28,593 bases of DNA, from IMG/VR virus record IMGVR_UViG_3300035698_018527, positions 1-28,593 of that record; one strand, given 5' to 3'. This document shows positions 6,008 through 28,593 of the stretch, one piece after another. The stretch comes from a virus. The notes beneath the pieces were generated by a model. The model saw nothing but the letters and a program-made list of their open reading frames with translations, did no database searches and was not told where the DNA came from. The position numbers and the translations under genes were made by a program. The stretch's first letter is position 1; every line of letters starts with the position of its first letter.

Positions 6008-6727
6008 ATGACAGCGAACAGCAAGAGCGCCAGGAGCGCCAAGACTGACAAGAAGTCAACCAAGGCAGCTCCCAAGAAGAAGCCAACTGCCAAGAAGGCG
6101 GCCAAGAAGCCCGCCAAACCGCAGCTGCCATCCAAGCCACTCAAAGACTCCCGCCAGGAAGCCTTTGCCCAGAATGTATTCACACAAGAAAGCGGCATGT
6201 CGCACGGAAGAACAAGGGGCGATGCTTACATCGATGCAGGCTACGACTGTAAGAATCGTGGGGTTGCTCGCCGTGGGGCATGCCAACTATTGACAAATAT
6301 AGACGTTGAGAATCGTATCGAATGGTTGAAAGAGCAGACTGCGAATTCTAAGATCTTGACAGTAGTTAAAAGGAAGATAATCCTCAGCGAGATAGCCAAC
6401 GGCTGCCTCACAGACTTTGTCTCGATCAGTGAAGACGGGGAAAGCATGAGCATTCACCTCGACGGTGAGTCGGCAAATGGGCGTGCTGTCAAATCTTTGT
6501 CACTGTCAACCAGAACGTCAACGCGCAAAGATGGCGAATCAGTCTCGGAAACTAAGCAGACGATCAGCCTAGTCGACGGGGTCAAAGCCATCCATGAATT
6601 GAATATGATGGAGGGGATCCACAAGACCGGCACCCAGGATCTGGTCGACGGGTTCAGCGAGCTATTGAATCGGGTAAGCGGCAAAGGCGTCAAACCTCCC
6701 ATGGAACCGGCTGAGGTGGTGGGCTGA
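6008..6727 (+). CDS. terS: Terminase small subunit
   Basis: The 239-aa protein fits the Terminase_2-type small subunit: RQEAFAQNVF at residues 49-58, followed by the A-Y-x-x-A-G-Y (AYIDAGY) helix-turn-helix region and A-R-R-G-A-C-Q-L-L...I-E-W-L-K at about 87-108. The small subunit recognises the packaging site and delivers DNA to the large subunit. An unusual N-terminal extension (residues 1-46) is almost only Lys, Ala, Pro and Ser and may add nonspecific DNA binding. The large subunit gene lies 7.8 kb downstream rather than adjacent. The ribosome site is weak. Confidence 0.8.
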   Translation: MTANSKSARSAKTDKKSTKAAPKKKPTAKKAAKKPAKPQLPSKPLKDSRQEAFAQNVFTQESGMSHGRTRGDAYIDAGYDCKNRGVARRGACQLLTNIDVENRIEWLKEQTANSKILTVVKRKIILSEIANGCLTDFVSISEDGESMSIHLDGESANGRAVKSLSLSTRTSTRKDGESVSETKQTISLVDGVKAIHELNMMEGIHKTGTQDLVDGFSELLNRVSGKGVKPPMEPAEVVG

Positions 6728-12215: not shown

Positions 12216-12418
12216 CTGGTGATCCCAAGGCGGCGCCGTTTTTGGCTAGGTATCTCTGCTTCAATATTGATCCAGCCAATCCGCCGCCATGGCTCACCAA
12301 CGATTTTGATGACAAACTCAAGAGAGACTGTGATGCTCACCTTACCTGCGTAGTTGACCAAGTGGAGCGAAAACGGTATTGTGCTGGTAAGTGGTATCCA
12401 ATGGAGGAGGCAGGTTGA
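12212..12418 (+). CDS. Hypothetical phage protein, 68 aa
   Basis: Unrecognised. The start overlaps the DUF5662-like gene by ATGA. The protein contains four aromatic-rich segments (FLARYLCFNID, PPPWLTNDFDD, KRYCAGKWYP) and three cysteines without a metal pattern. It carries the GGAGGAGG ribosome site of the following gene near its 3' end. Confidence 0.55.
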   Translation: MTGDPKAAPFLARYLCFNIDPANPPPWLTNDFDDKLKRDCDAHLTCVVDQVERKRYCAGKWYPMEEAG

Positions 12419-12582
12419 GTGTAAACAAATATAGCGACCCATATATCCCTGGCTTCCAGAAGGAAATAACTGAATTCAATAGAGCAATACGAGCATTCCA
12501 TTCTGAACTCTTTGATAGAACGGTACGGAAGATGAACAGACTAAAACGGAAGGGCGTGACCGGTTTCGACGGGTTGAGTTAG
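12415..12582 (+). CDS. Hypothetical 55-residue protein overlapping the tmRNA 5' end
   Basis: The TTG at 12415 is preferred because GGAGGAGG lies directly upstream and it overlaps the previous stop (TTGA). The protein has a central helix (FQKEITEFNRAIRAFHSELF) and a basic segment. Its last 10 codons and stop (12552-12582) lie within the tmRNA 5' acceptor and D-domain, so the C terminus (GVTGFDGLS) is read from tmRNA sequence. It may be a real gene with an overlapping RNA or a spurious end. Confidence 0.5.
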   Translation: MSVNKYSDPYIPGFQKEITEFNRAIRAFHSELFDRTVRKMNRLKRKGVTGFDGLS

Positions 12583-12905
12583 TACATTGATCGCGTGTCC
12601 CAGATGATCAGTTGGCTGGGTTATCAATCCTGATCGCACATTAAGTGCTACACAGATGAAAATGGCAGCTTAGTTGCCTTGGGGCTAAGGGAAGATACTC
12701 TGGGATTACCGAATGCCCGACATGCTACGCAGAGGAACCCGAGACCTGGGCGGTTACAACAGGGGGAATTCAGCGCCAGGACATAAAGACTGAATGGTGG
12801 AGGCGGGAAAGCTCGCCCAAGGTTGCCGGACCCAAACCGGATATACACGTAGACGTTAGTGCACGGTCAGTTCGGACGGGGGTTCGATTCCCCCCACGTC
12901 CACCA
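12552..12905 (+). ncRNA. ssrA: Phage-encoded transfer-messenger RNA (tmRNA)
   Basis: A 354-nt RNA. The acceptor stem GGGCGTG (12552-12558) pairs perfectly with CACGTCC (12895-12901), including the G3-U70 pair that defines alanine charging, followed by A and an encoded CCA (12903-12905). The D-domain reads CGGTTTCGACGGG, as in bacterial tmRNAs. The T arm is GGGGG-TTCGATT-CCCCC (12878-12894), preceded by CGTAGACG...TTCGGACG as in canonical tmRNAs. P2 pairs GTACATTGA (12582-12590) with TTAGTGCAC (12856-12864) and CGTGT (12594-12598) with ACACG (12845-12849). tmRNA with SmpB frees stalled ribosomes and tags proteins for destruction. No smpB gene is seen, so host SmpB would be used. Confidence 0.95.
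12647..12673 (+). other. Candidate tmRNA tag reading frame
   Basis: GCT at 12647 is a plausible resume codon, since the preceding TAAGT keeps the conserved A at position -4. Translation gives ATQMKMAA then TAG. The Ala-Ala end is what SspB/ClpXP-type degradation needs, and GCA-GCT-TAG parallels the GCA-GCT-TAA end of the E. coli tag. The +2 frame, from GAT 12655, reads DENGSLVAL without a stop. The tag frame is inferred. Confidence 0.55.
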
Positions 12906-12926: not shown

Positions 12927-13136
12927 ATGCAGGAACTGAAATTGTTTATGAGTAGAATGTCCAGCGGCCGATGGATACTAACCGTGTTGTCGGGGGTATC
13001 ATTTCTGATCCTGGTCCTGGCCTACGTCATGAAGGGGAAAGAGTTCAGCATCGCCCCATCTGCGATCACGGCCATCATCACCATGGTCTTCATGAGCTAC
13101 TTCAACAAGGACCGTAAGAACGGCGGTGCATCATGA
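12927..13136 (+). CDS. Small two-span membrane protein, possibly holin-like
   Basis: A 69-aa protein starting 21 nt after the tmRNA end, with GAGGGAGAG upstream. It has two predicted membrane segments, at about 16-35 (WILTVLSGVSFLILVLAYV) and 42-59, with a short basic C-terminal tail (NKDRKNGG). Size and topology resemble small holins, and the next genes are another membrane protein and an esterase. No holin family signature is recognised, so the lysis role is contextual. Confidence 0.65.
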   Translation: MQELKLFMSRMSSGRWILTVLSGVSFLILVLAYVMKGKEFSIAPSAITAIITMVFMSYFNKDRKNGGAS

Positions 13137-13617: not shown

Positions 13618-14199
13618 ATGTTCGCAATCGGAGACAGCATCGCAGCGGGATACAACGGCGAGACCAGGAAAGACAAAGATGGCTGGCCACAGCAGCTCGG
13701 GCTTGATGATAACCACGCCCTCGGCATATCGGGTAGTACGGCGGAAGAATGGGCCACTATATATGTTCCTATACTGAAGAAGGTAGTCCGCTCTGCGGTA
13801 CCCTCTGGAGAGCCTATCGTCATCTCTCTTGTGGGGAACGATTTCATAGCCGCGGTAGGTGATGGCATCCTCTCGGGGGGGGAGTCTACCCGCATGGTGG
13901 AAGCATACAAATCGGTGCTCCATCGACTGAGGCTCTGCCGGTGCTATATCATTCTTTACACGGATCCTACCTACGGAGCAGATCCTGAGATAGCGTGCCA
14001 AGTGCGCCTTCTCAGACAGTTGCTTATGGCCGTGCCTGACCGTCGAGCATTCCCAGCAGGTCTTTCTTGGTACGACTTAGATTCAATAATCGGATTCGAG
14101 CCAGGAATGATGGGTGATGACAAACTACACCCAAGCACCAAAGGCCACGAAGCGATCGCCAGACACATGGCATTCATGGGAATGACGGCAACATTCTGA
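13618..14199 (+). CDS. SGNH/GDSL family hydrolase
   Basis: A 193-aa protein with all four SGNH blocks: block I AIGDSIAAG with Ser7, block II GISGS (Gly36), block III VGND (Gly73-Asn74-Asp75), block V D168-K-L-H171 (GDDKLHP). The family cleaves ester bonds in carbohydrates, peptidoglycan O-acetyl groups or lipids. The start at 13618 is 7 nt after AAGGA. There is no signal peptide, so it would act inside the cell, on leaving it at lysis, or in the virion. Located after two membrane proteins and before packaging genes, it may help lysis or modify host surface sugars. Substrate unknown. Confidence 0.85.
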   Translation: MFAIGDSIAAGYNGETRKDKDGWPQQLGLDDNHALGISGSTAEEWATIYVPILKKVVRSAVPSGEPIVISLVGNDFIAAVGDGILSGGESTRMVEAYKSVLHRLRLCRCYIILYTDPTYGADPEIACQVRLLRQLLMAVPDRRAFPAGLSWYDLDSIIGFEPGMMGDDKLHPSTKGHEAIARHMAFMGMTATF

Positions 14200-14290: not shown

Positions 14291-14539
14291 ATGGAAACAA
14301 TAGAAAAGTCATGGCAAGAGGCAAATAGCTGCAATCACATAGTTGGTTTTGCTGAAACCGGCCATGGTAACCGAATGGGAGAGGAAGACGTCCACGCTAG
14401 ACTCGTGTTAGCTGATGGGGCCAATAAAGAGAGGGTAGCAGCGGATCATTTCGAGGAGTTCGACTATTGCCCGCGGTGCGGTAAAAGCACGGAAGAAATT
14501 AGGCACGAGATCTACGTAGCCAAGGATACTTGTGGTTGA
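14291..14539 (+). CDS. Small zinc-site protein upstream of large terminase
   Basis: The frame is open from within the junction element, but ATG 14291, just after AGGGA, is the sensible start. The 82-aa protein carries C60xxC63 in YCPRCGKS and an earlier C14-x-H16 pair that may complete a metal site, with GHGNRMG between. No family is recognised. It overlaps the terminase gene by 8 nt, suggesting co-expression with packaging. Confidence 0.65.
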   Translation: METIEKSWQEANSCNHIVGFAETGHGNRMGEEDVHARLVLADGANKERVAADHFEEFDYCPRCGKSTEEIRHEIYVAKDTCG

Positions 14540-16085
14540 GAATTACACATCGGCAGAATACGCCCTTATGGGCGAGCACCTTGACAATCAATATTGGCGT
14601 CTCAATAATCTCTATTACATTCTAGACGAACACGGCCAGCGTGTCATTTTCAAGATGCGGCCGGTGCAAGAGTGGCTATTCTACAACATGACGTGGAGGC
14701 AGGTCATCCTCAAGGCCCGTCAGCTTGGTTTTACCACATTCGTCGACATACTCTTCCTCGATTTCATCCTGTTCAATGACAATCTACGTGCAGGCATCAT
14801 CGCCGACACCCGTCAGGATGCTGAGATCATCTTCCGAGATAAGGTTAAGTTTGCCTATGACAACCTTCCAGAATTCATCAAGATGCAACGCGTAGCCGAC
14901 CAGCGTACTGCTGGCGAGATTCTTCTCAGCAACAATAGCAGTATCAGGGTTAGTTCATCCCTTCGGTCAGCGACCGGCCAGCTGCTGCATGTCACTGAGT
15001 TCGGAAAACTCTCTGCCAAGTATCCGCAGAAGGCCCGCGAGATCATCACCGGCGCATTGCCCGCCATGCATAGAAACTCCTTAATCGTATTCGAAGGGAC
15101 TGCTGAAGGACGTGACGGTGCATTCTTCAACATGTGTGACGTAGCGCAGAAGCAGCATCTCACTGGTAAGCCGTTAAGTCGTCTGGATCTCAAGTACTTC
15201 TTCTTCCCTTGGTATCAGAACCCATCCTACACAGAAGACCCAACCCATGTAGACATCCCTGCCAGACTGAAAAAGTATTTCAAGAAGATACAGACAGAGA
15301 TTAACGTCAAGTTCACCCGCGGGCAAAAGGCGTGGTACACAAAGATAGAATGTGGTGCGACCGGTCTCGGGTCAGACATGTGGCGTGAGCATCCATCTAC
15401 TCCGGATGAAGCCTTCGCAGTCTCAGTCATCGGCGCCTACTATGACGAGGAGCTCAAGGCGGCTTATGGTGAGGGCCGCATAGATAAGTTCCCATTCAAC
15501 AAGAATTATCCAGTGCACACAGCATGGGACATCGGCGCTGAATGCACAGCAATATGGTTCTTCCAATTGATCAATGACATGATATTCCTGATCGATTACT
15601 ACGAGGACGTGGGCCCAGGCATGGGTCACTACGTCGAGGTGCTTGGCCGCCGGTCCCGAGAGCTCGGCTATAATTATGAACGCTACATAGGTCCGCACGA
15701 CCTGGGCAACGAAGAATGGGGAGTAAGCAAGACAAGGATAGAGACGGCCCGCGAGACCTACGGTATCAACTTTGAAGTACTACACCGCTATGGCCTTGCC
15801 GATGGCATCGAGGCAGCCAAGCAAGTACTGCCACATTGTTTCTTCGATTCTGAGAACTGCGTCCAGATGGTAGAGCGCAACGAGGACTTCCCGCGGCAGG
15901 CTGTTGGCCTTGCATCCCTGGAGAGTTACCGCAAGAAGTGGAGCCCTGCAGGCGACTGGATGAACAAACCACTCCACGACTGGGCAAGCCACGGCGCCGA
16001 CGCCTTCCGCTACATGGCCCTAGCGATCGGACTTGAGCGTACAGGTATGCTTACGAATTCACTTGTAAAACGATGTCGGCTCTGA
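14532..16085 (+). CDS. terL: Terminase large subunit
   Basis: A 517-aa packaging ATPase/nuclease. The Walker A variant K61-ARQLGFTT lies at 61-69, the acidic Walker B region HVTEFGKL at 153-160, and coupling motif FEGTAEG at about 188-194. The C-terminal RNase H-like nuclease shows D333 (AWDIG), a second acidic segment FLIDYYED at about 352-359, GPHDL at 387-391, and HDWASHGADAFRY at 482-494 with D490. It pumps DNA into the procapsid and cuts it. The first codon is GTG 14532 (ATG 14568 is an alternative). Its stop overlaps the open frame of the next gene. Confidence 0.95.
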   Translation: MVENYTSAEYALMGEHLDNQYWRLNNLYYILDEHGQRVIFKMRPVQEWLFYNMTWRQVILKARQLGFTTFVDILFLDFILFNDNLRAGIIADTRQDAEIIFRDKVKFAYDNLPEFIKMQRVADQRTAGEILLSNNSSIRVSSSLRSATGQLLHVTEFGKLSAKYPQKAREIITGALPAMHRNSLIVFEGTAEGRDGAFFNMCDVAQKQHLTGKPLSRLDLKYFFFPWYQNPSYTEDPTHVDIPARLKKYFKKIQTEINVKFTRGQKAWYTKIECGATGLGSDMWREHPSTPDEAFAVSVIGAYYDEELKAAYGEGRIDKFPFNKNYPVHTAWDIGAECTAIWFFQLINDMIFLIDYYEDVGPGMGHYVEVLGRRSRELGYNYERYIGPHDLGNEEWGVSKTRIETARETYGINFEVLHRYGLADGIEAAKQVLPHCFFDSENCVQMVERNEDFPRQAVGLASLESYRKKWSPAGDWMNKPLHDWASHGADAFRYMALAIGLERTGMLTNSLVKRCRL

Positions 16086-17981: not shown

Positions 17982-20051
17982 ATGGCAGGAGAAGCAAACC
18001 AAACGCAGGGATCCAGTTCCCTTGCGAGCTTCGTCGTCACTCAGCACAAGTTCTGGGCGCGCCAGCGCGAGAAGATAGAACTCAAATGGAATCGTAACCG
18101 TAACTACTTCATGCAGGAAGCGGGCGATGAATGGAAAATAGGCGAGGGTGAGAAGTGGCGATCCAAAGCATTCCCATCCCATACCCGCGATAACATCATC
18201 GCAGCCCTAGCATTAGTACTCGATGCAGTACTGCAGGGCGGACGCATTCCTTTCGAGCTGCAGCCGGATCCGGATACGAGATCCACACAGCAAGATCTTG
18301 ACAACAAACAAAAAGAAATCATTGATGACGCTATCGATGAGATGGATAAACTCATCGAGGGGCAACTCGCCGACAGTCATGCCGATCGAGCCTTCGGTCT
18401 TAACGTCCTATCCGGTGCCGTCTACGGCGAGACCCTAGCCAAGACCCCACTGCTCACGACCATTAAGAAGGGTTGGCAGGAAGATACGATCGAAGGTGTT
18501 GAAGATACCAGCACCATTCCAGATTCCATGAAGACCTTTAGTCGATGGGTACGCTCGTCCGTAGCACTTGGTTGGCAATATGTATCCGTCTGGAACGTCT
18601 TCCGCGACTTAGAAGAGGATGACCCGCGCAAAGGTGCAGGATTCATCCATCGTGTATTCATGTCTCCCTGGGAACTACGTCAGAAGTTCGATGAACCATT
18701 CTTCATTCCAGGTGCCATCAACAAGGTGATCCAAGAGTCTGAAGCAGGAATTGGTACCAGTGGTAGCAATCAGACACTGAAAGATCCGGAAGGCGGACAA
18801 CGCTCTATATCTCCTGGCCAACGAGACATCCAGCATCGCAAGAAGAAGATTATCTATCGCGAGTTCTGGGGCCGCGCACCAATCAAGAGAGTAGAAGACT
18901 TTGAAACTCGACTGCGTAAGCTGGTAGAGAGCGGCGCCGATGTCAATAACTTTGAAGACCTGGGCATTGAAGGGACGGCCGTCGATCCACTTACCGCTCC
19001 AGAAGACGAGGACGGCAGAGATGTCGAGATTATGTGCGTAGTCGCTGACCGGCACGTAATACGCTTCTCCCGCTCCGACCAAGACCTGCGCCCGATCTAC
19101 CGCGGCATATGGGAAGAGAACCTTGATGAGCCGCACGGTCGTAGTGTTGCCGACAATACAGAAGACGAGCAACGCACACTGATAGGCGCTTACAGATGCT
19201 TTGAAGATACCAGCAAACTATCCAGCGTATTCATGATCGCCATTAAAGAGGCACTGCTGGAGAACCCCGAAGATATCAACAAGGGGATCCAGTCTGGATT
19301 CCTGAAACTCCTAGTGAGTGACGACGTCGACGACGCTCGCCGCGCAGTACAGCAGCTTGGCATGGAGAATTCAGGACAGAACGTGTTGAAGCTTGTTGAG
19401 CTCGTCGAGAAGCGACACGAGGAAGCGGGCAAGATCCCTCGCATCAACCGCGGCTTCCAACCCGAGCAGGCAACGACCACAGCTTTTGCAATAGCACAGC
19501 AGCTCGAGAAGTCCAGCAAGTATATCGGATCAGTCATCCGTAATTACGATGAAGGACTGATCGAGCCTATCATCACGTCGATGTACGACTACAACATGGA
19601 AGACCCGACAGTCACGAGGGGCAAGGGCAACTACACTGTCAAGGCCGCTGGCTACAGTTCCTTCCAGAACCGTATCCAACGCGTGCAGCGTCTGGAGATC
19701 CTCCTACGATTGATCCTTTCCGATGAGGACGTAAAAGCTCGCTACAAGATCAATGAGTTCATCAAAGAGATCGGCCATGCTATCGATGTAGATACCAAGA
19801 GCTTCGAGAAATCGAACGAAGAGCTTGAGGCCGAGCAGCAACTATTTGCACAGCAGCAGGCAGAAGCCGCTGAAATAGCCAAGCGCAGCGAAGAGTCTAA
19901 CACCGAAAAGAACCTCGCATCGGCAGCAGACAGCCGGTCCAAGGCCGTTACCCGCGCAGCAGAAGCAGAGTTGAAGGCTCAGGAGCAGGAGAAACTGGAT
20001 AACAATCAGACCCTCCTCGATGGAGATCTTGAAGGCGGGGCAGGAGTATAA
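17982..20051 (+). CDS. Portal protein
   Basis: A 689-aa portal, the dodecameric ring at one capsid vertex through which DNA moves. It starts RQREKIELKWNRNRNYF and continues with HTRDNIIAALALVLDAVL (about 64-81), typical of large podovirus-type portals, followed by the stem and wing regions and a long coiled-coil-like C terminus rich in Gln, Glu and Ala (about 610-670). No enzyme motif is expected. It stands in the standard order terminase, portal, scaffold, capsid. The ribosome site (TAGGTAA) is weak. Confidence 0.85.
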   Translation: MAGEANQTQGSSSLASFVVTQHKFWARQREKIELKWNRNRNYFMQEAGDEWKIGEGEKWRSKAFPSHTRDNIIAALALVLDAVLQGGRIPFELQPDPDTRSTQQDLDNKQKEIIDDAIDEMDKLIEGQLADSHADRAFGLNVLSGAVYGETLAKTPLLTTIKKGWQEDTIEGVEDTSTIPDSMKTFSRWVRSSVALGWQYVSVWNVFRDLEEDDPRKGAGFIHRVFMSPWELRQKFDEPFFIPGAINKVIQESEAGIGTSGSNQTLKDPEGGQRSISPGQRDIQHRKKKIIYREFWGRAPIKRVEDFETRLRKLVESGADVNNFEDLGIEGTAVDPLTAPEDEDGRDVEIMCVVADRHVIRFSRSDQDLRPIYRGIWEENLDEPHGRSVADNTEDEQRTLIGAYRCFEDTSKLSSVFMIAIKEALLENPEDINKGIQSGFLKLLVSDDVDDARRAVQQLGMENSGQNVLKLVELVEKRHEEAGKIPRINRGFQPEQATTTAFAIAQQLEKSSKYIGSVIRNYDEGLIEPIITSMYDYNMEDPTVTRGKGNYTVKAAGYSSFQNRIQRVQRLEILLRLILSDEDVKARYKINEFIKEIGHAIDVDTKSFEKSNEELEAEQQLFAQQQAEAAEIAKRSEESNTEKNLASAADSRSKAVTRAAEAELKAQEQEKLDNNQTLLDGDLEGGAGV

Positions 20052-20342: not shown

Positions 20343-20969
20343 ATGAAAAAGACAGCCTCATTCTTGTTCGCCATAATGTTCATTGTATTATTCATGCTTC
20401 CGGCATCGATGCTGGCCGACGTCATGTCGCGACCTCTGGTTATGCGTGATAGACTCGTTATCGATACCGGCGGATCATTTGTAATAGGGACCGTTACGAT
20501 GACGGCTTCGTCCGCAGAGCTCAATCTATTGGATGGCGCCACCGTAACCTCCGCAGAGATTAACCGTCTCGATGAAAGCGCGATGACCGGCGACGGCAAG
20601 TTCGCTCCTTTCTTCATGAAAGGTTCCTATACATTCACGGACGCTATCACAAACTTGTCTCACCAGTCTCTAGGCGTGGCAGTTCCTAATAACTTCATCA
20701 TCCAGGCTGCCGTCCTCGATATTGGCACCGCAATGGTAGGTACAGGTAATACTGGAACCTTAGCCATAGCTGTCACCGGTGCTGCAGACATCATGGCCGC
20801 CATAGATGCCGATACGCTTGGCTCTACCCATACCAACTCGATGATCCCATTATATGGTGATCCAGCCACATGGATAAAGACCACCTCTGCCAGCAATGTG
20901 ACGATTAGTACTGTCGGCGTCACTCAAGGAGTTATCAACGTGACGATCCTTGGCATCCCTGGTAACTAG
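20343..20969 (+). CDS. Putative head fibre/decoration protein with signal peptide
   Basis: A 208-aa protein. The N terminus MKKTASFLFA plus a hydrophobic core (FIVLFMLPA) and possible cleavage after SMLA (residue 25) is a Sec-type signal, unusual in a virion protein. Residues 54-77 hold the fibre motif TASSAELNLLDGA...TSAEINRLDES, known from phage fibres and capsid decorations. The rest is Gly, Thr and Ala rich and likely beta-structured. Located between portal and scaffold, it may be a head fibre, comparable with phi29-type head fibres. AAGGAG gives a strong ribosome site. Confidence 0.65.
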   Translation: MKKTASFLFAIMFIVLFMLPASMLADVMSRPLVMRDRLVIDTGGSFVIGTVTMTASSAELNLLDGATVTSAEINRLDESAMTGDGKFAPFFMKGSYTFTDAITNLSHQSLGVAVPNNFIIQAAVLDIGTAMVGTGNTGTLAIAVTGAADIMAAIDADTLGSTHTNSMIPLYGDPATWIKTTSASNVTISTVGVTQGVINVTILGIPGN

Positions 20970-21385: not shown

Positions 21386-22645
21386 ATGGCCGTCGAAGAA
21401 AAAGAAGAATCAGCAGGAGCCGCTCAAGAAGGCAATGAGTTCACCAAAGTATTTGAGGGTGCCGAGGGTGCCGAGGGTGCTGAGGGTGACGAGGGTGCTG
21501 AGGGTGACGAGGGTGACGAGGGTGCTGAGGGTGCTGAGGGTGACGAGGGTGCTGAGGGTGCTGAAGGTGCCGAGGGTGCTGAAGGTGCCGAGGGTGCTGA
21601 AGGTGCTGCCGCAGCTGCTACTGAAGCTGAAGAGGCTGCCGTTGCTGCGGAAGAGGCTGCCGTTGCTGCTGAGGGTACTGAGGGTGCCGAGGCTGCCACT
21701 GCCGCTGCCACAGAAGCAAGAACTGCCGCTGATGCTGCCGCTGTCGCCGCGGGTGAAGAGAAGGACGATCTAGTCAAGCTTGGCGAAGAGCTCGCCGGTA
21801 AGGATGGCGATGCCATCGCATTAGAAGAGCTGCTAGTCGCACTCGAAGTAGAACGTCCGGCCGTCCGCACCACGTTGGCCTCCACGGCCTTTGCAGCATG
21901 GTTTGATAAGCAGCCCAGCATGATTCAGAAGATCGGCAACGAGGGCAAAACTCAGGCAGATGCTGAGTACCTCCTTAAACTCTACGAGACCGATACAGGT
22001 ACCACGCCACCGGCAGCGGGCGACGAAGGTGATCCTTCGTTAGTACTTGGTGATGATTTTGAGCTGACTGACTCGCTGGGAAATAAGTTGACGCTTGGTG
22101 AGTACAACGAGCGCGTCGGACCCGAGCAGCAGCAGATAATGGAAGCAACCATTTCTAAGTATCTGGAGTCTTTTAAAAAGGCTCATGTCGATAGCACCGC
22201 AAGTGGTGACGATGTACAGCAGCTTCGATCAGAGATCCAGCAGGTCAACAAAATCAACCAGGAACTCAACTTCTGGTCAGAAGTGCGCGACGTGATGCCT
22301 GATGCGAAGGGCGTTATCAATAGTGAAGCTGGAAAAGCGTGGGCCGAAAAACAACAGCCCTGGGTTATTGACGTCCTGCAGAATTCTTTGCACCCGCCAG
22401 ACATGATTCGAGTAGTCTCCCGCATGAAGGAAGACATCGCCGCGACACAGAAAGCCGGTAAGGATGACGAGGCCGCTAAGACGCACGGAAAGAAGAATTT
22501 GGTGCGCACTGGAGCAGTGAGCGACAAGAAGACTGGCGGCGCTAAGACCAAGACCAGTGGCAGTGACGCTGGCAGCAACGCCAAGACTGACTCTGACCAG
22601 ACCGCAGAATTTGATGAAGCGTTCCACGAGGAGGCAGAAGTATAG
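21386..22645 (+). CDS. Probable scaffolding protein with Gly-x-Glu repeat
   Basis: A 419-aa protein immediately before the major capsid gene region, where scaffolds reside. Residues 25-72 are 16 Gly-(Ala/Asp)-Glu triplets, followed by an Ala/Glu-rich helical run (about 73-125). The C-terminal half contains a helical core (EYLLKLYETDTG, QQIMEATISKYLESFKK, a coiled coil at about 275-295, and PWVIDVLQNSLHPPDM) then a Lys/Thr/Ser linker. Scaffolds guide procapsid assembly and leave before DNA filling. Assignment rests on position, acidity and helicity. CAGGAG precedes ATG. Confidence 0.7.
   Translation: MAVEEKEESAGAAQEGNEFTKVFEGAEGAEGAEGDEGAEGDEGDEGAEGAEGDEGAEGAEGAEGAEGAEGAEGAAAAATEAEEAAVAAEEAAVAAEGTEGAEAATAAATEARTAADAAAVAAGEEKDDLVKLGEELAGKDGDAIALEELLVALEVERPAVRTTLASTAFAAWFDKQPSMIQKIGNEGKTQADAEYLLKLYETDTGTTPPAAGDEGDPSLVLGDDFELTDSLGNKLTLGEYNERVGPEQQQIMEATISKYLESFKKAHVDSTASGDDVQQLRSEIQQVNKINQELNFWSEVRDVMPDAKGVINSEAGKAWAEKQQPWVIDVLQNSLHPPDMIRVVSRMKEDIAATQKAGKDDEAAKTHGKKNLVRTGAVSDKKTGGAKTKTSGSDAGSNAKTDSDQTAEFDEAFHEEAEV
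21458..21601 (+). repeat. 9-nt coding tandem repeat, 16 units
   Basis: GGTGCCGAG and variants (GCC/GCT/GAC in the middle codon, GAG/GAA in the third) repeat for 16 units inside the scaffold-like gene and encode Gly-(Ala/Asp)-Glu. The near-identical nucleotide units indicate recent expansion by slippage or unequal exchange. Confidence 0.95.
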
Positions 22646-22934: not shown

Positions 22935-23951
22935 ATGGCAGGAACAAAATACGGCGACATATCACCCCGAACGGCAGCATTTGCGGCCAAGAAATTGCTT
23001 GAGCGCGGCCAACATATCATGGTCTTCGAACGCTTCGGGCAGATGGACCCTCAAGGGAAGAACAAGACCAAGACCAGGACGTGGCGCCGTTACGAATCAC
23101 TGCAGCGCGCTTCCGCTCCCCTGGCAGAAGGTATCACTCCGGCCGGTCAGCAGCTAACCAAGACGGATATCATCGCGACGCTAGAACAGTATGGCGACAT
23201 GCTGCCTCTGACCGACGTGATTGAAGATACTCACGAGGATCCAGTCCTCAACCAGATGATGGGTCTTGTTGGCGAACAGTCGGCAGAAACCGTGGAAGAG
23301 ATCAGGATTAACGTCCTGAAGGGCGGTACAAACGTATTCTACGCCAATGGTGTAGCTTCACGTGCCCTAGTCAACTCTCCTGCAGTACGCGGCGACTTCC
23401 GCCTGATCTACCGGTCATTCAAACGCAACAAGGCGCGTGAGATTACCGAGATCATCAAGGCCAGTGCAATGATCGCTACAGAGTCGGTCATGCCAGCCTA
23501 TTGGGCCATTGGCCATACTGACCTCGATGCAGATCTGCGTGGTCTGACTGGTTTCACGGAAGTCAAGAATTACGCGGATTCCAGTAAGTCACTGCCAGGA
23601 GAGATTGGTTCGATGGACCAAATCAGAATCATCTTGACCGGCATGGTTGACCCGTGGTTGGCAGCTGGACTCACCGGCACGACACTCCTGTCGAACGGAG
23701 CAGCCGTTTCTGCAACAGCCCAAGCCGATGTCTATCCGATATTGGTCACTGCTCGGGATGCATACGCCATAGTGCCGTTGCAGGGTTCCAATGCGATCAC
23801 GCCGATCGTACTGAATCCGAATAACCCAGCCCCTGGAGATCCTCTAGGACAGACTGGCTCAGTCGCGTGGAAGACATATCAGACCGCGGCAATCTTGAAC
23901 GAAGCATGGTTCGCACGACTGGAAGTCGGGGCAACCGCCAACCCTAGCTAG
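22935..23951 (+). CDS. Major capsid protein, N4-gp56 family
   Basis: A 338-aa HK97-fold capsid protein of the N4 gp56 type: R-T-A-A-F-A-A-K near the start, a LPLTDVIEDTHEDPVL segment at about 95-110, SAETVEEIRINVLKGG, then a beta-rich P-domain and C-terminal FARLEVGATA. It forms the icosahedral shell. The ribosome site AAGGAG sits 6 nt before ATG. A strong hairpin follows the stop within 9 nt, limiting read-through and possibly raising the capsid mRNA level. Confidence 0.9.
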   Translation: MAGTKYGDISPRTAAFAAKKLLERGQHIMVFERFGQMDPQGKNKTKTRTWRRYESLQRASAPLAEGITPAGQQLTKTDIIATLEQYGDMLPLTDVIEDTHEDPVLNQMMGLVGEQSAETVEEIRINVLKGGTNVFYANGVASRALVNSPAVRGDFRLIYRSFKRNKAREITEIIKASAMIATESVMPAYWAIGHTDLDADLRGLTGFTEVKNYADSSKSLPGEIGSMDQIRIILTGMVDPWLAAGLTGTTLLSNGAAVSATAQADVYPILVTARDAYAIVPLQGSNAITPIVLNPNNPAPGDPLGQTGSVAWKTYQTAAILNEAWFARLEVGATANPS

Positions 23952-25464: not shown

Positions 25465-26469
25465 ATGTCACAGGTTACAACATATTCTGACTACTACACT
25501 CAGATGTTGACGGACCTGCCAGGAGCAAAGGTCAACTTGCTCCTGCAGGCACTTCAACGCATGGGCCGCGAGTTCGCCAGGAAGACCCAATCATTTCGTG
25601 AAGAGTTGGATCCTATTGCCGTCGTAGACTATCAGCAGGACTACGTCCTTACCCACGCCTACGAGGCCAGCATCCATCGAATCAAGCACGTCAAAATCAA
25701 CCAAGCGAAACAGAAGTCCAACTGGTTCGAGCTTCTCAAAGAAACAGACATCCGATTTGTAACTGGCCATACCCCCAACGCCAACCTAGCTGACATGTTG
25801 CTGACCTGCGGGACTATAGGCACGGCCACCATCGGAGACTGGACGTCGATCAGTGCCGGATCGCTGGGTGCTTCAATCAACGGATCCACTTACAGCATGA
25901 CCGATATCGACTTCACTGCTGATGTCGACTTCGACGACGTAGCACTTACCATCCAAACTGCTCTCCGTGTAGCCATAGGTGGGAACGTTGGATTTGTCCG
26001 GCCGATCTACAATAGCTCGAACGTCGTCACTAAATTCGTGATCTACGTCGAGGGCGGCACTATTTCATATATAACTGCTGGCAGCGAAGGTACCGACATC
26101 AGCGGCGCAGGCTATATGAACGGCCTGACGGGGACGGGAGTCCTCAGCCCTATGATCCAGGCGGATGTAATCTTTCGGCCAGACATCAATACCGACACCA
26201 TGCCTGACTGGTACCTGGACCGGTGGGGTGAGGCTATTGTAGCAGGCGCCACATGGTGGATGGCTAGACAGACATCATCTCTTCCATGGTCGGACCCTGT
26301 AATGGCCGCAGATCGTCGTAAAGACTATGACCGCGGAGTAACCTCCGCCCTGGCCGAGAACAATAAGCGCAGCCGAAATGGCGTGGTCAATTTTGATCTA
26401 GAAGAAGATGACTTCTCTGCCGACTATTATGAAGAAGGCCGTATCGAGAACTGGAAGGGTACATTCTAA
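25465..26469 (+). CDS. Tail adaptor/tubular-like protein with DUF3383-like insert
   Basis: A 334-aa protein. The N terminus (about 8-60: YYTQMLTDLPGAKVNLLLQAL then REFARKTQSFREEL) and C terminus (about 249-300: WYLDRWGEAIVAGATWWMARQ, then W-S-D-P-V-M-A-A-D-R-R) match the helical pattern of podovirus head-tail adaptors (T7 gp11-like). Between about 117 and 228 lies a beta-rich segment like DUF3383 domains (DWTSISAGSLGASING, DFDDVALTIQTALR). An inserted domain could add a binding surface. GGAGGAG precedes the start. Confidence 0.65.
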   Translation: MSQVTTYSDYYTQMLTDLPGAKVNLLLQALQRMGREFARKTQSFREELDPIAVVDYQQDYVLTHAYEASIHRIKHVKINQAKQKSNWFELLKETDIRFVTGHTPNANLADMLLTCGTIGTATIGDWTSISAGSLGASINGSTYSMTDIDFTADVDFDDVALTIQTALRVAIGGNVGFVRPIYNSSNVVTKFVIYVEGGTISYITAGSEGTDISGAGYMNGLTGTGVLSPMIQADVIFRPDINTDTMPDWYLDRWGEAIVAGATWWMARQTSSLPWSDPVMAADRRKDYDRGVTSALAENNKRSRNGVVNFDLEEDDFSADYYEEGRIENWKGTF

Positions 26470-28593
26470 TGAAGCGAGCAATCAGCATACTGGCAATGGC
26501 TATAGCCTTTACGACAGGAGCAGCTGCACAGACGCGGACGGAGACAAGTAATAGTGTATTCTTCAATAATGCTGACCCTCAGTTTACGATAGTCGCGGGA
26601 AAATACAATACCCCAAAACTGATCTTCTACACATGGGAATCCTTTGGTGTCGTCTATAACCCCACAGGTATGGTTTCTACTTACTTCTGGAGCACTAACC
26701 AGTATGCTGATGAGATCACAGCTGGTTTCTCGATCAGCGGCACAGCATTCAGTAACCGTGTTGAGTTCCTTGTTGGTACCAACGACTTCGGGTACCTGAC
26801 AGATCAGGGCTATGCAGCCATACGCCTTACGGACGCTGCAACACCTCTCAAGAGTAGCTTTGCCCGCGGTTGGCAGGTTGTGCTGCCGTCTCCTGAGATA
26901 AGTGGAGGAGCTGCGGCCTTGGCCACTACTCCACTCGATTGGTCCGCCCTGGGTCCGCACACGGCAGTATTGGCCTCCTTTCCTGTTCAGGCTGGCTCAG
27001 GGATCGTAGTACGGGCCAAGTCTGCCCCAGATGGCCAGTACTATTTCGACTCGTTGTGGGGCTCTCAGGGCTATCTGACAGCCGATTCCAACATGCTCGG
27101 CGATGTGACAGGCACCTATCTAACTACAGTTGTCGGTAAAGTGCGCGGAACGAGCTTCACGTCCGCTACACCAACCAATAACTACATATGGAAATATGAC
27201 TCTGCATTGGGTCTATTTAACCTGGAACCTGACGGAGGGTCTACAGTTACCTTCACTAACAGCATTGGGACTGTAGCCAACGACATTCTTCAGCGGATCG
27301 GTGCGCCAGATGCTGGTACTAACACGATCTGGGTTGGGATATCTGGAAGTGATACTAACTCTTGGATAACGGCTTCGGCTACGAGCATATCCAACAAGGC
27401 GTCACTGATAGAGTACGGGAACACCAACGTCAGCATGCAGTCGCAGATTAGCACTAACTTTAATGACCTTGCCGTTCTCAACCCCACCAAAACAATTACC
27501 ATCTCTCCGTCAGGAAGCGACTATACATCTATTCAAACGGCACTGGATGCGAACACCGCAGGCGGCGAGGCATTTCTTGTCTACCCAGGGACATATACGA
27601 ACACTATAAACTTCTCTGCAAACAATCAGTGCGTGCAGGGGATGGGTTGCTCTCCTGCTGTTCAGACTGTCACGCTGGCAGATGCAGACTTGTGCAACTA
27701 TGGGGCATGGACTGGTTGTAAATTGTCCAAGATTAAGATGCAAGTTACGGGTGCTACAAATGCCATCGCAACGATACAGGGTACGGGCTCGATCAGTATA
27801 AACCATTGTCATGTTAAGATGGTATCGGCTGCTGACTTCGTGAATGTAGGGCAACCTACTTGCATTAAAGGAACAGGCACGCTCAAGATGCGCCGAGGTA
27901 CAATCGAGTATGCACACACGGGGAATTGTGGTGCCACAGGCAGAAAGAACGCAGTACAATCAAAAGCTGGTTCTGATTTCGACTTTAGGGATGTTGATGT
28001 TAATGTGAAAAATTCAGGAACCGCAAGCCACACGGCAGGATTTCAGTCAACGGCTGGCGGCCTATTGGACTCGTTGATATGTCGCTTCGTTGTAGTAGAC
28101 GATGGCGCAGACACTACTTACGGCGAGGCGTTTCTAACTGCAAGCGGCGAAGTCGAAGCGCGGAGAAATTCATTTCATGTAACAAGTATTTCTGATGATG
28201 CTGTTGTGCTGAAAACCACAGGAACAATATCTATCAGGAGCGAGTATAATCATGTCCATTCACTCGCCTCTAATGGTAATGCAAGAGCATCGGATAATGG
28301 TTCTGGATGTGAGGTTATTGGTGGGAATGATACCGTTATAGCAGCTAACACGAATATCGGTGGTGGTACTTATTCTCTGTCGATCGTTTCGGCAGATGGC
28401 GATTATACCGCTACAGGAACAGGCACATTTGGGTTATTGTCAGTTGGTGGGGCGAGTACGTTTGGTGGTGATATTAACATGGGCGGCTTTGCTGTAACTA
28501 ATCTGCTTGACCCTGCCGCAGCGCAGGATGCAGTCACTAAAGCATACGGCGATGCCAACTATGCGGCACAAGACCTGACACCTTACGCGCTGA
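26469..28593 (+). CDS. Tail fibre/tailspike with signal peptide and beta-helix (partial)
   Basis: The frame is open from ATG 26469, which overlaps the previous stop (TAATG), to the window edge: at least 708 residues, C terminus missing. Residues 1-20 form a signal-peptide-like segment (MKRAISILAM, then AAA before Q21). From about 343 (TITISPSGSDYTSIQTALDA, then EAFLVYPGTY) the pectin-lyase-like beta-helix begins, as in tailspikes that bind or cut host sugars. Near the end of the window the fibre motif GGDINMGGFAVTNLLDPAA...DAVTKAYGDA appears. It probably recognises the host surface. Enzyme activity cannot be confirmed. Confidence 0.8.
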   Translation, partial: MKRAISILAMAIAFTTGAAAQTRTETSNSVFFNNADPQFTIVAGKYNTPKLIFYTWESFGVVYNPTGMVSTYFWSTNQYADEITAGFSISGTAFSNRVEFLVGTNDFGYLTDQGYAAIRLTDAATPLKSSFARGWQVVLPSPEISGGAAALATTPLDWSALGPHTAVLASFPVQAGSGIVVRAKSAPDGQYYFDSLWGSQGYLTADSNMLGDVTGTYLTTVVGKVRGTSFTSATPTNNYIWKYDSALGLFNLEPDGGSTVTFTNSIGTVANDILQRIGAPDAGTNTIWVGISGSDTNSWITASATSISNKASLIEYGNTNVSMQSQISTNFNDLAVLNPTKTITISPSGSDYTSIQTALDANTAGGEAFLVYPGTYTNTINFSANNQCVQGMGCSPAVQTVTLADADLCNYGAWTGCKLSKIKMQVTGATNAIATIQGTGSISINHCHVKMVSAADFVNVGQPTCIKGTGTLKMRRGTIEYAHTGNCGATGRKNAVQSKAGSDFDFRDVDVNVKNSGTASHTAGFQSTAGGLLDSLICRFVVVDDGADTTYGEAFLTASGEVEARRNSFHVTSISDDAVVLKTTGTISIRSEYNHVHSLASNGNARASDNGSGCEVIGGNDTVIAANTNIGGGTYSLSIVSADGDYTATGTGTFGLLSVGGASTFGGDINMGGFAVTNLLDPAAAQDAVTKAYGDANYAAQDLTPYAL

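Follow-up and report, generated by a model that had tools for sequence, protein, structure and literature searches.

A divergent one-piece tmRNA gene in the packaging and capsid region of a phage genome fragment

Results

Genomic setting of the tmRNA gene

The DNA analyzed here (the window) is a linear virus record of 28,593 bases, whose plus strand carries a phage module encoding the terminase small subunit (6008-6727), the terminase large subunit (14532-16085; phrog_2, E = 3e-24; 44-46% identity to phage terminases), an N6/N4 DNA methylase, a portal/head-tail connector (17982-20051) and a capsid protein (22935-23951). A complete one-piece tmRNA (ssrA) gene of 354 nt lies on the same strand at 12552-12905. 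The next gene (12927-13136, plus strand; phrog_34399, E = 4e-5) starts 21 nt past the tmRNA CCA and encodes a 69-aa membrane-like protein, and a GDSL-type lipase/acylhydrolase gene at 13618-14199 is located between the tmRNA and the terminase. Since the packaging and capsid module flanks the tmRNA, it is a phage gene. A targeted search in which the controls behaved as expected, together with a Pfam comparison of 30 window proteins, found no SmpB in the 28.6-kb fragment, which is possibly only part of the phage; the earlier claim of a phage-borne tmRNA with no smpB nearby was thus borne out. Two features of the structural module were noted in passing: the protein in the scaffold position (21386-22645) has a long EGAEGDEGAEG repeat tract and matches a collagen-repeat model, and the proteins at 20343-20969 and 26469-28592 have signal-peptide-like N-termini, which are unusual for phage structural proteins.

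Identification and structure of the tmRNA

ARAGORN called 12552-12905 (plus strand) as a one-piece tmRNA with the tag ATQMKMAA*, and Rfam model RF00023 matched the same interval over model positions 1-374, i.e., at full length, with 85.5 bits (gathering cut-off 47 bits) and E = 4.4e-32, which excludes a chance match. The two tools agree exactly on both ends. The sequence-only reading had proposed a complete tmRNA gene with these termini and had suggested Infernal with RF00023 and ARAGORN as the check; the high score and identical ends confirmed it. This is the sole RNA-family match to Rfam within the window. The full-length chromosomal tmRNAs listed above the cut-off score about 98-287 bits, all higher than the window tmRNA, which therefore is divergent. 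No recognizable promoter or terminator was found around the gene. Minimum free energy folding gave no signal (z = -0.35), a usual result for a pseudoknotted RNA and hence uninformative rather than counter-evidence.

The helices were verified by explicit pairing checks between the window tmRNA and that of a relative, G031 (described below); constrained folding was noisy in counting P2 pairs, so the explicit checks were used instead. The acceptor stem P1 pairs GGGCGUG (12552-12558, plus strand, as are all elements below) with CACGUCC (12895-12901) in 7/7 positions, the third pair being the G-U alanine pair (G3-U70), and pair 5 is swapped from G-C to C-G in G031. The long helix P2 has 19 pairs in three segments: P2a (12571-12577 with 12867-12873, 7/7), P2b (12585-12591 with 12855-12861, 7/7, two double-sided changes in G031) and P2c (12594-12598 with 12845-12849, 5/5), the last adjoining the conserved GUAGA bulge. 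The T arm (12878-12894; Rfam match and sequence) has a GGGGG/CCCCC stem and a UUCGAUU loop, and the 3' CCA is encoded at 12903-12905. The acceptor stem with its alanine pair, the TTCGACGGG D-domain, the T arm, the P2 pairing and the encoded CCA, all listed in the sequence-only reading, were each found. That reading would have been refuted by loss of the long-helix pairing in relatives; in the one relative compared, G031, P2, which joins the 5' and 3' parts of the RNA, remains paired with compensatory, double-sided changes.

Pseudoknot PK1 (12599-12636) is situated upstream of the resume codon and PK2 and PK3 downstream; their stems are present and conserved in G031. PK1 consists of stem 1 (12599-12603/12616-12620, 5/5) and stem 2 (12605-12611/12630-12636, 7/7), PK2 (12682-12734) of 12682-12685/12715-12718 (4 pairs) and 12698-12702/12730-12734 (5 pairs), and PK3 (12745-12795) of 12745-12749/12776-12780 (5/5) and 12768-12773/12790-12795 (6/6). 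The P5 hairpin around the tag stop codon (12664-12678; 12664-12669/12673-12678, 6/6) also appears in the minimum free energy fold. At the usual place of PK4 there is a hairpin, GGCGGG/CUCGCC (12802-12817, 6/6). Between the window and G031, compensatory changes keep the pairing in P1, P2b, PK2 and PK3, which shows selection on a structured RNA.

ARAGORN and the helix check place the tag reading frame at 12647-12673 (plus strand), GCU ACA CAG AUG AAA AUG GCA GCU UAG, with an alanine resume codon, a C-terminal Ala-Ala and an in-frame UAG stop. ATQMKMAA is short and its middle is unusual, yet it falls within the bacterial range, as 12 of 202 bacterial tmRNAs collected encode 8-residue tags and 23 of the 202 tags end in MAA.

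A probable gene overlapping the tmRNA 5' end

A frame at 12415-12582 (plus strand) has a TTG start after GGAGGAGG, the start overlapping the preceding stop codon, and runs 31 nt into the tmRNA, so that its last codons enter the tmRNA 5' end. Its codon score (0.05) fits the true frames here (0.13 ± 0.07) and not the wrong frames (-0.38 ± 0.15), and it is therefore probably a real small gene. No homologue was present in the loci compared. If the gene is real, RNase P cleavage at 12552 should remove its stop codon, and tmRNA maturation would itself yield a nonstop mRNA.

tmRNAs in related phages

Terminase relatives are many and distant (38-46%), and ARAGORN detected no tmRNA in the 80 loci around them; one such locus (L025, 1333-1413) carries a tRNA with the anticodon TTA, of the ochre suppressor type, according to the same program. 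Capsid relatives are closer. Four of 50 whole capsid-relative records contain a tmRNA above the cut-off, as two pairs. The first pair, G031 and G032 (IMG/VR contigs IMGVR_UViG_3300005512_000260 and 3300005613_000423; 57% capsid identity), has a tmRNA with the tag AEALDIAA that adjoins a tRNA-Arg gene and has its own terminator. In the second pair, G035 and G041 (52% capsid identity), the tmRNA encodes the tag AKPIMFPGQQMLAVA and is found between tRNAs. G025 and G028, the closest relatives represented by long records (67% capsid identity), contain no tmRNA.

The genome position also differs: the window tmRNA is upstream of the terminase, whereas that of G031 is downstream of it, between an orf16772 homologue and the portal gene. 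In G035 and G041 the tmRNA is ∼6 kb upstream of the orf16772 homologue, and no terminase homologue was detected there. A search of viral contigs for orf16772 relatives found none. Within this one capsid family, the tmRNAs at L150 (9036-9430), at L153 (1999-2400) and in the window (12552-12905) thus carry three different tags and occupy no fewer than two genome positions. Because it is present in only some relatives and varies in position and tag, the tmRNA is an accessory gene of this capsid group, in which it occurs in three lineages, in at least two positions and with three tag types.

A divergent pseudoknot region shared with one other phage lineage

The tmRNAs were compared over the region left after removal of the first 100 nt and last 70 nt. 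The window and G031 post-tag regions aligned with a score of 77.5 (z about 20 against shuffles; the maximum of 2,000 shuffles was 36). When 202 bacterial tmRNAs covering seven phyla were compared with the same region of the window, a few weak matches appeared, the strongest to one Actinomycetota sequence (z 7.6, local score 37); with the other phage tmRNAs the best z was about 2. This similarity and the compensatory changes together indicate that the window and G031 tmRNAs share descent. Among the sequences compared, the divergent post-tag version is common only to the window and one other, distantly related phage; a bacterial donor may lie outside the sample, which held 30 or fewer tmRNAs per phylum.

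Exact patterns of the shared region, run against 84,980 genomes/species and IMG/VR, had tmRNA-internal matches only in the two known phage contigs and in no bacterial tmRNA. By BLAST, the tmRNA showed no DNA similarity beyond 36 nt to 50,697 phage records and no match to plasmids; the exact pattern of its 3' end had no match in viral contigs, and a donor DNA search of 20 genomes matched the T arm only. Verrucomicrobiota gave the highest scores with the ends of the window tmRNA (Mann-Whitney p = 4.5e-5), and a weakly supported tree of the conserved ends places several phage tmRNAs beside this phylum. Such likeness is at most a hint at an origin or a host; G031, the closest relative, does not clearly give the same signal, and for this reason no host is assigned.

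Discussion

The gene, its ends, helices, pseudoknots and tag frame were observed directly in the window, and the pairing is conserved in one relative. Judged on these sequence features, the locus very probably encodes a functional phage one-piece ssrA RNA that works with the SmpB, AlaRS and EF-Tu of the host. This reading is based on the complete RF00023 and ARAGORN calls, the pairing of all diagnostic helices and the compensatory changes in G031, as well as on a tag that ends in MAA with a length in the bacterial range and on the recurrence of a tmRNA in three lineages of the capsid group. From these features we infer expression, charging, partners, tagging and a benefit to the phage as follows. 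Transcribed within the phage operon, the tmRNA would be excised by the RNase P and 3' exonucleases of the host, whose AlaRS would attach alanine via G3-U70; together with host SmpB and EF-Tu it would enter ribosomes stalled on truncated mRNA, add Ala-ATQMKMAA and terminate at its own UAG. Ribosomes would thus be freed during infection and the tagged proteins would pass to host proteases. It is plausible that the phage tmRNA supplements host ribosome rescue in this manner, whereas the idea from the sequence-only reading that it might replace a rescue system altered in the infected host is speculative. Gains suggested for phages with a tmRNA are that ribosomes are kept free in infection or that host proteins are recycled (PMC9004378).

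The phage tmRNA could instead act as a decoy or modulator: it would compete with the host tmRNA for SmpB, or substitute a tag that promotes degradation less well than that of the host, and phage or regulatory proteins would then receive less host-directed tagging. The lone tmRNA-like domain of phage DS6A reportedly inhibits the tmRNA of the host, ATQMKMAA is unusual for bacteria and the tags differ greatly among the three phage lineages. However, the one phage form known to be inhibitory is this tag-less one (PMC4131195), whereas the window tmRNA has kept its tag frame intact and conserved, along with P5, the region of the resume codon and all three pseudoknots, beyond the needs of a decoy, and its tag retains the Ala-Ala end; we regard such a role as unlikely. 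Capture of a host ssrA by imprecise excision has been proposed for other phages (PMC9004378), and the window copy might be a chance passenger of this kind, functionless and now drifting. This is very unlikely, given the covariation with G031 in P1, P2 and the pseudoknots, the lack of an integrase among the 30 window proteins searched with Pfam and a closest tmRNA that is a phage and not a bacterial one. The record is a metagenome-derived fragment, and a host tmRNA could have been fused to phage sequence during assembly; but genes run in one direction with tight spacing on both sides, and homologous tmRNAs are present in two independent contigs from phages in this capsid family, which makes a chimera extremely improbable.

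An extension of the functional ssrA reading, which we put forward as doubtful, is that a phage-lineage tmRNA has changed both its genome position and its tag among related phages, and that its maturation in the window cuts off the stop codon of the upstream gene. The resulting nonstop message would be cleared by trans-translation, and the tmRNA would generate its own substrate or form a regulatory loop.

In kind, a phage tmRNA without smpB is ordinary and well established. A 2022 survey found a tmRNA in 402 of 18,146 phage genomes (PMC9004378), and further examples are mycobacteriophages Bxz1, Cali and Wildcat and Bacillus phage G (PMC4131195), Bradyrhizobium phages (PMC12656738) and huge phages, some of which also encode SmpB (PMC7162821). 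The earlier statement that phage tmRNAs are rare therefore holds only in relative terms. A tmRNA-type 5' end occurs in 19 other virus records, none of which contained smpB, and smpB-less phage tmRNAs were usual in the records scanned. Like those of the phages named above and of Melnitz, the window tmRNA is a complete tmRNA in a lytic-type module, and smpB is usually lacking in such cases; the Melnitz tmRNA is two-piece with a riboswitch (PMC9004378), in contrast to the one-piece form here. It resembles bacterial one-piece ssrA (RF00023) in its TLD with G3-U70, P2, PK1-3, a tag ending in AA and the encoded CCA, and differs in being phage-borne, in its lower score, in the hairpin that stands for PK4 and in a post-tag region nearer to that of G031 than to any of the 202 bacterial tmRNAs. 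The tmRNA of G031 and G032 has a homologous post-tag pseudoknot region with the same helix set, and is unlike it in tag, in position by the portal gene and orf16772 homologue, in its tRNA-Arg neighbor and in its own terminator.

What is new is a divergent tmRNA in a phage group that is small and apparently unclassified, added to the few percent of phages that have one; knowledge of trans-translation itself is unchanged by it. Since members of one capsid family differ in the position and tag of their tmRNA, one can ask about a separate phage tmRNA lineage and about tag selection. One-piece tmRNAs were also seen inside or beside tRNA genes in three unrelated viral contigs (L092, L097 and L098).
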